NCBI RefSeq assembly: GCF_000189635.1
Contig: NW_002476569.1
Coordinates: 436,727 to 500,726, forward strand
Direction of reading: 5' to 3'
DNA from: Tetrahymena thermophila SB210
Lineage: Eukaryota > Ciliophora > Oligohymenophorea > Hymenostomatida > Tetrahymenidae
Length of the DNA: 64,000 nucleotides
Shown here: in pieces, positions 60,071 to 63,000 of the stretch
Position numbering within the stretch: position 1 is the stretch's first letter
How the letters are laid out: each line of letters starts with the position of its first letter
The notes under the pieces: generated by a model
The model's database searches: none
The model's input: the letters and a program-made list of their open reading frames with translations, nothing else
What the model was told of the DNA's origin: nothing
Translations under genes and position numbers: made by a program

Positions 60071-63000
60071 TCACCAATAAGAATATTTTAAGAACCATCT
60101 ATATTTTCTGATGAGATATTTTCTTACCTCATTCCACGCTAGTACCATTATAGAAAATGGAACTCCAGAAACCCCAAACTACCAGAACTCTATAGGGCGG
60201 CCTCCAAAAATAGTATTGACTCCTGGGGTTAATACTAAAAATGCTGCCAAACAAGTTTCGAAAAATATGCCTTATATCATTTTGATGTTAAAGGGTGAAG
60301 TACAAAATGAAGATTTTCTAGCCTTACATGCAAAAATGTTGCTCCATTAGAAAATAACAATGCAACAGAAGAAGCTTGATTAAGCATACTTCAAAGCATC
60401 TGTTGAATAGCAAGCCGTGTTTTATACAAAATCAGAATATGTATAACTGCTGTTGATATTGCAGTCAGACCAACCACCAACTTTACTCTACCATTTACCA
60501 TTTTTGCATTCTATAAATGCTTTCCTTAAATCATACTATCCATTTTATATCTGAGTCCAATCGATGATCCATAAAAAATCTTTATAGTTTTATTTTAAAA
60601 TGTATAAATCTTCATCACATGTTTTACTTCCAAGCATTACATTAGAGTTGTACATCACCCCATATTGTTAATATTATGAAAATTATGCAATTTTTGGATC
60701 TATTGTAAAAAGGTGAGCTGGAGGTTTGTATGCGGAATAAGTAGCCATTCCGAATAATTCAAGAGTTTTGAAACCAAAATAATTTCTATTTGCATAAAAT
60801 AAAAATAAGAATGATAAAGAAAATAATAAAATTTAAATATTTTACAAACTGATAAAATATGCAATAAAACCACATGACATTGACATAATGCCCATTAATC
60901 CATAAGAATGAGTCATCAATTTAAGAGATACCAAATGATCATTTTTTTAACGCGGTCTTCTCGTCATAATATCTACTTCTGCCTCTTCATAACCTAAAGA
61001 TATAGCTGGATAGATATCAGTACCAACACAAATACAAAGCATGTAAATATTACTCAAAGGAAGAGGAATACTGAAAATGATGAATGCTAAAAAAGGAAGA
61101 ATTTCAGGAATATTTGAACATAAAAGATAAACAAAAGTCTTTTTTAAATTATCAAAAATCTTCCTTCCTTCTTCTATGCCTGCAACAATAGATGCAAAAT
61201 CATCATCAAGTAAAATCATATCAGCAGCGTCCTTTGTAACGTCACTTCCAGTAAGATTCATTGATATACCTATATTTCCTTACTTAATAGCTGGGGAATC
61301 ATTAACACCATCACCTGTTACCGCTACTATTTATCCTTCTTTTTAGCATGCTTGTACTATTTAAAGCTTTTGAGCAGGGGTAGTTCTTGCAAATACACAG
61401 TATGGTTTTTTAATCCATTCTCTTAGGCTTGTAAATTTTTCTATGCCTTGCTATTCTTCAAAAGATATTGACTACACAATTTTATCTCCATGAATAACAA
61501 TTGCAGTACATTATTCAACTGCTTCTTCCCAAGTAATACTTAATCTATTCATCATTTCTTCTGTGGTTTCGATAAAATTTGGAATAATATTTACCTTTTA
61601 TTAAATTATTTTTGGCTTAAAAGACTCAATATTAATAATTTACTTGCTTAGCTATTGAAGCAGCAGTAGATGGTTAATCACCAGTAACCATGATAACTTT
61701 TATACCAGCAGATCTGCATTCTAGGATTGCATTAGGGACTCTGATTTTAGGAGGATCAATTAAAGATATCAAACCTGTAAAAACATAACCTCTTAGTGGA
61801 AAATTAAACGTTTTTGGGCTTTAAACTTAAAAATTATAATTTTTAAGAGGATATTGCTCTCTATGGAGAAGCAATTTAGCAAATCCAATCACTCTTTCAC
61901 TACTTTTACCAAATTTTTTGTTAATTCTCTCAAAATTTATATCCCACTGATCATTGATAATCTCTTCTTTATTTCCATTTTAAATATATGAGCAGAAATT
62001 CCAAATTTTTTCAGGGGCACCTTTTACATATATGCAATAATCGCTTGTAGGAGAAACATTTTCAACAATAGTAAGAGCGAATTTCTCAGTAGAATTAAAA
62101 GGCATTCTGGTTAGATTTTCTTTTTTATGAAAAAATCAAAAAAAAAAAATTTATTAATAATCTGTAAAATAATTTTGTATTACTCTCTTTATTTTCAGCG
62201 ATTCTGTATTTATCTCTAGTTTTTTAAATATCTTCAATAGATTGAAAAAATCTAATCAACCCAGTTTCAGTAGCATCTCCATTAACAAGACACTTAAAAT
62301 AATCAATATTTTTTTTATCTTCTATCTAGCTAATATCAAATTTTGCTTCACTGCTAAGAATAGCGTTGAGGTGTAATTCTTTAAAGGCAATATCCTTTTC
62401 ATAATAATTTAGCAAAGTAGCATCTTCAACATATTTTTTGTTGGTAGCCTTAATTTCTTATCCACTTATCCAAATATGTTCTACCGTCATAACATTTTAA
62501 GTTAATGTGCCTATGTGTAATTAATATTATTTGAATTAAAAAAATTTTTTTCTTAAAATGGCTTATTTTCGATTAACTTAAATAAAGTAAATTTCAATTT
62601 AACTGGTTTATTTAGATTTCATTCTTTAAATAATAACACATTTTAAATAAGTATAACCTGTTTTATCTGAACAAATACATGAAGTAGATCCTAGTGTTTC
62701 AACTGACTCTAAGTTTTTAACTAAGACATTCTTTCTATGAAGAGATTTCGCAGTTATTGCTAGAGAAATGGTAATACAACATATCAAACCTTCTGGAACA
62801 TTGACAACTAAAATACCGATCCCATAAACAATAGAAGTTATAGCATCGTAACCTGCATGAAAGTAAGAAAGTAAGAAAAATAAAATGCCTAAAGACAAAG
62901 CAACAAAAACCATGAAAAGAATGAGTCTATCTAACTCAATACGAAGTGGAGTTTTAGTTTTTTTCTCAGCTGAAGCCATACTTGCTATTTCGCCTAGAGT

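Follow-up and report, generated by a model that had tools for sequence, protein, structure and literature searches.

In the animal Na,K-ATPase, the aspartate at position 804 in M6 is an ion ligand in simulations of the E1 state and, according to a table in the same study, coordinates K+ at both E2 sites; it is described there as carrying a proton in Na3-E1 and as having lost it in E2(K2) (PMC5026471). In that study, the D804N substitution hits K+ binding harder than Na+ binding and Na+ selectivity stays, ∼50-fold lower at sites I and III and higher at site II, and D926N removes most of the Na+ selectivity in the simulations. The simulated pocket is unstable when at least two of Asp804, Asp808 and Asp926 are protonated, and in system E1_S5, where both 804 and 926 carry a proton, one Na+ leaves it (PMC5026471). 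A further study reports that phosphorylation is supported by Na+ at site II alone, and that in the mutants phosphorylating through site II only, the membrane part is locked and uncoupled from the cytoplasmic part (PMC10812997). The residues of the Na+ and K+ sites are described as conserved in archaeal P2C pumps (PMC10654040).

The gastric H,K-ATPase alpha chain (ATP4A), which reads FIELCTD in M6, carries Glu804, as the first-pass annotation of the present locus had stated, together with Lys775. The alpha2KK chain of 8k1l, presumably a natural P2C variant of brine shrimp with changed stoichiometry, has gained lysines. In human ATP1A3, D801N and D801Y are disease mutations, D801 being the equivalent of the Asp804 position in alpha-3. 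Here we describe a P2C-type pump gene of Tetrahymena thermophila that has Cys at this position, and the family to which it belongs.

The window gene and its cation pocket

The stretch of DNA analyzed (the window) comprises 64,000 nucleotides, C11:436727-500726 of the genome searched (101 Mb in 445 contigs), with a G+C content of 18-34% in 2-kb steps. The pump gene runs on the minus strand from 64070 to 60071, with its start codon just beyond the window end, and its frame is open only if TAA and TAG are read as Gln (ciliate code 6). To place the exons, open frames were matched to Na,K-ATPase and GT-AG introns were selected so as to preserve the reading frame; the first intron was set directly from the sequence, and exon 1 was completed by joining the window end to locus L061. 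In this splice model, the five predicted introns all lie within the window, and six exons give a predicted product of 1190 residues, from an assumed ATG 70 bases outside the window to a stop at 60071.

63665..64000, minus strand: in-window part of exon 1 in the splice model (assumed ATG at window-equivalent 64070), N-terminal region with an RYGTD segment
62658..63557, minus strand: exon 2, M1-M4 and actuator domain, ending in SDKTG
63144 (start), minus strand: TGES of the actuator domain, exon 2
62791-62793, minus strand: Glu327 in NVPEGL of M4, exon 2, kept
62665-62667, minus strand: phosphorylated Asp of SDKTG, exon 2
62184..62510, minus strand: exon 3, TLTQN and part of the nucleotide-binding domain
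61644..62119, minus strand: exon 4, nucleotide-binding domain with KGAPE, then MVTGD
60846..61594, minus strand: exon 5, P domain (GDGVND), M5, M6 and most of M7
61103..61105, minus strand: Glu779 of M5, codon GAA, kept (codon reading)
61028..61030, minus strand: Cys at the Asp804 position of M6, codon TGT (alignment and codon reading)
61016..61018, minus strand: Asp808, codon GAT, kept (codon reading)
60071..60785, minus strand: exon 6, end of M7, long M7-M8 loop, M8-M10, C-terminus WFLKYSYW, stop
60338..60340, minus strand: Asn at the Asp926 position of M8 (Na+ site III), codon AAC (alignment and codon reading)
60257..60259, minus strand: Glu954 of M9, codon GAA, kept, with Phe for Glu953 (alignment and codon reading)

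The catalytic motifs TGES, DKTG, KGAPE, MVTGD and GDGVND are all intact. Residue numbers are those of the animal pump and were checked against the aligned letters. M6 reads LCICVGTD in the window pump and LCIDLGTD in Na,K-ATPase, so that the loss of the first aspartate with retention of the second, as the first-pass annotation had it, is borne out by gap-free alignment and by the codons themselves. The same holds for the M8 change it invoked, where QWSN stands against QWAD. A register shift, the first of two trivial explanations, is ruled out: six alignments to Na,K-ATPase alpha chains contain no gaps from M5 to M6, nor does that to the gastric row, and position 804 lies 25 residues after Glu779 in the window pump as it does in Na,K-ATPase, so that no adjacent Asp can occupy the site. 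The second, a base-call error, is likewise ruled out, since TGT also stands here in 10 further loci of this genome, which support the call in the window independently.

Four of the six pocket carboxylates are thus kept (Glu327, Glu779, Asp808 and Glu954), and those at 804 and 926 are replaced by Cys and Asn. Tyr771, Ser775, Asn776 and Gln923 are also retained, and Thr772, Thr774, Gln854 and Ala323 are replaced by Leu, Cys, Ser and Val, respectively. No compensating new acidic residue was seen in M4-M10 when the sequence of the window pump was read by eye. That such a pocket would have altered ion selectivity or stoichiometry, as had been suggested from the letters alone, may soundly be inferred; the argument is strengthened by Asn926 and by the published simulations, and the ligand role assigned to Asp804 agrees with both the E1 simulations and the E2 K+ sites (PMC5026471).

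Several other frames lie in the window. At 38777-49852 (plus strand), a frame of 3692 codons carries TIG, G8 and CEMIP beta-helix domains, a make-up that we take to resemble that of fibrocystin-like (PKHD1L1) proteins; frames at 31778-32893 and 25603-26826 (both minus strand) carry a CobW/HypB/UreG domain and AAA ATPase domains, respectively.

Family assignment

Among NCBIfam models the best match is TIGR01106 (Na,H/K exchanging), with 927.2 bits against a cut-off of 946.1, and the next-best model reaches 439.5 bits. The Ca2+-pump models all fall below their cut-offs (PMR1-type 439.5 against 798.3, SERCA-type 393.3 against 703.4 and PMCA-type 361.1 against 507.05). The match to Na,K-ATPase alpha-1 (7e1z) spans residues 96-967 with a whole-sequence E of 3.9e-237, with a second stretch over M8-M10, and every one of the 36 best-matching solved sequences bears the name of a Na,K or a K-transporting (H,K) ATPase. 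On sequence grounds, the window pump is closer to P2C than to other P-type families.

With the Na,K-ATPase alpha chain it shares near full-length homology, domain order, catalytic motifs and the residues Glu327, Tyr771, Ser775, Asn776, Glu779, Asp808, Gln923 and Glu954. It differs in Cys804, Asn926, Phe953, Leu772, Cys774, Ser854 and Val323, in its long M7-M8 loop, and in a C-terminus that reads KYSYW rather than KETYY. For the beta subunit (PF00287), the genome gave 0 matches, and the control genomes gave no match either. Position 804 is altered in the gastric pump as well, but Ser775 with Cys804, in place of Lys with Glu, rules out a gastric-type pump. The 8k1l chain also matches the window pump in sequence; where the former gains lysines, the latter has lost two carboxylates.

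These likenesses bear on a functional reading in which the substitution is tolerated and Na+/K+ exchange persists, with a lowered affinity or a stoichiometry of 2:1 or 2:2. The four carboxylates retained together with Tyr771, Ser775 and Asn776, and a best family model that is the exchanger model itself, speak for it, although that model's cut-off is missed by 19 bits and the lost aspartate is the one that serves both E2 K+ sites (PMC5026471). Physiology also argues against K+-stimulated Na+ efflux in Paramecium and against ouabain-sensitive transport in Tetrahymena (PMC4866997). Taken together, we regard persistent exchange as unlikely.

The P2C family of the genome and its history

With the M5-M7 segment as query, at least 31 matches were found in the genome, of which 15 loci, the window gene (L031) included, were counted as P2C-like at 53-98% identity; the remaining 16 are at most 50% identical, and those read resemble other P-type pumps. 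Position 804 is Cys in 11 of the 15, always with the codon TGT, Gln in two, Asp in one (L040, contig C126) and Ser in one (L045, contig C91, catalytically dead). The two Gln copies, L042 and L043, are adjacent (C125, 99,775-107,000); one writes the residue as TAA, the other as CAA, in keeping with TAA read as Gln. Asp804 is therefore absent from 13 of 14 catalytically live copies. The residue identity and the role of Asp804 given in the first-pass annotation stand, but its scope does not: the trait belongs to the P2C expansion and not to one odd gene, and in this genome a loss that is a disease mutation in human ATP1A3 is the usual family state. To judge from these alignments, loss of Asp804 is common to nearly all sister pumps, whose ion transport is probably unlike that of the textbook enzyme. 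In the literature covered, with most subscription papers outside its scope, no account of ciliate pumps lacking Asp804 was met.

Asn926 is found in all 15 P2C loci, including the Asp804-bearing L040; Glu954 is found in 14 of 15, with Gln in L045; and Glu327 is found in 12 of 12 live copies with M4 read (L032 and L033 lying outside this scope) and is lost in L045. A soft-metal site formed by Cys804, Cys802 and Cys774 would draw on three M5-M6 cysteines that are indeed all present in the window gene, yet two paralogues have Gln804, of the 15 loci 4 have Cys774 and 6 have Cys802, and heavy-metal pump models score at most 237 bits; we consider such a site highly improbable.

Some further observations were made in this genome. 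The M5 proline (Pro778) is Thr in 8 of 15 copies (SNMTE for SNIPE; L035-L039 and L041-L043) and Ala in L045. The nearest paralogue, C11:518453-518941, shares contig and strand with the window gene, from which it lies ∼21 kb upstream, and is 92% identical over the M5-M7 query. CCCCAA repeats begin contig C4, with other-strand copies at ∼465.6-465.9 kb (a reversed-pattern control is the identical repeat and so uninformative). Together with the low G+C content and the reading of TAA and TAG as Gln, these repeats agree with a macronuclear assembly of Tetrahymena. A viral scan returned 17 candidate loci. MRC4 and MRC5 (TPA9) are P-type ATPases of the mating complex (PMC10901506); TPA9 is placed between Spf1 and tat-5 in a list in PMC10654040, and for that reason a link between the window gene and MRC5 is not drawn.

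Two trees were built, both with the trait column (position 804) included. In the first (15 paralogues, one Na,K row, one H,K row and 8 bacterial pumps), L040 branches as sister to the 14 remaining paralogues (support 84/75); in the second, with more columns and with L045 and two long bacterial rows left out, it is sister to 13 others with support 79/79, in a data set where the H,K row is 42% filled, three paralogue rows lack one added piece and the meeting of long branches between animal and bacterial rows drew a warning from the program. The position of the Asp804 copy fits a single loss of Asp804, and with moderate support the simplest reading of these alignments would be one such loss, then one change to Gln, in the live copies. 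Asn926, being common to L040 too, appears to be older than the loss.

In the best 80 of 586 confirmed prokaryotic relatives, position 804 is Asp in 25 and Asn in 27, the pattern having failed in 27 and the anchor being missing in 1; neither Cys nor Gln was found there in the parsed rows (25 Asp and 27 Asn) of these best 80. The 27 rows with a neutral Asn804, of the NLVTD type that resembles Ca2+ pumps, can be counted in favor of a changed substrate, in which H+, K+, NH4+ or Ca2+ would be exported and Na+ no longer carried. The SERCA pocket likewise has four carboxylates. The loss of most Na+ selectivity through D926N alone in simulation points the same way (PMC5026471), whereas the Ca2+-pump models lie far under their cut-offs and the Lys775 of gastric pumps is absent, with Ser in its place. 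A change of substrate seems quite unlikely to us.

Selection was gauged by dN/dS (NG86, 223-224 codons) in 12 chosen pairs, three of them with the dead copy and none with L040 or L044. All 12 pairs gave 0.049-0.119, values that are rough because synonymous sites are near saturation in most pairs, and the window gene against its nearest copy L032 gave 0.049. The window gene is under strong purifying selection, and neutral decay is not indicated by these rough values. L045, together with L161 (C91, within 1,696,140-1,702,000, minus strand), reads NTTG for DKTG, STPLGL for NVPEGL, GIGNNYYD for GDGVND and TAD for TGD. The Asp that is phosphorylated and the Glu of M4 are both changed, as is each of the two M6 Asp positions. 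Its branch is long (0.52 in the first tree); it keeps one uninterrupted frame of more than 1100 codons, and against three relatives its dN/dS is 0.09-0.11 with dS saturated. Broken motifs, an open frame and a dN/dS near 0.1 together suggest that L045/L161 is likely a retained pseudo-pump. Such a paralogue lends some color to the idea that the window gene, too, is decaying or a pseudogene; with its intact catalytic motifs, open spliced frame and dN/dS against L032, this idea is rejected as scarcely credible.

A candidate transport cycle

The reading that we prefer, tentatively and at a little under an even chance, is that of a working P2C pump with a reduced cation pocket, which would export at most two Na+ or other monovalent cations per ATP with weak or no return of K+. 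With position 804 permanently neutral, the pocket would resemble the Na+-binding E1 form, in which Asp804 is thought to be protonated, and the charge that this residue supplies to both E2 K+ sites would be missing with Cys804. With 926 neutral as well, Na+ site III would be weak or gone, so that no more than two Na+ (or another monovalent cation) would be exported per ATP and K+ return would be weak or nil. Dephosphorylation would then need a different trigger from a pair of occluded K+: protons, a single K+ or Na+ itself.

It is from the simulations and from phosphorylation through site II that we infer fewer exported ions and weak K+ return, extending to the window pump, with its Cys at 804, results obtained with protonated Asp or Asn in the animal pump. 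Given the losses of selectivity in D804N and D926N, Na+ need not be the substrate. As the membrane part of the site-II mutants is uncoupled, phosphorylation would be no proof of transport. Leu772, in place of a Thr that is a site I ligand, and Val323 mean that the pocket geometry may differ.

On a broader scale, and on balance doubtfully, the P2C radiation in ciliates of this lineage without the Asp804/Asp926 chemistry (13 of 14 live copies here) might represent an electrogenic exporter of at most two monovalent cations with no K+ counter-transport, a further copy, its catalysis wholly lost, being kept as a pseudo-pump. If this were true, a Na+-ATPase would have evolved from a Na+/K+-ATPase. 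A pump family that manages without Asp804, and of which a single genome holds Cys, Gln and Asp forms, offers a natural test of ion number and K+ coupling at a position whose ATP1A3 counterpart is a disease hot spot in humans, and it could supply a molecular reason for older reports of Paramecium and Tetrahymena without a classical Na,K-pump.
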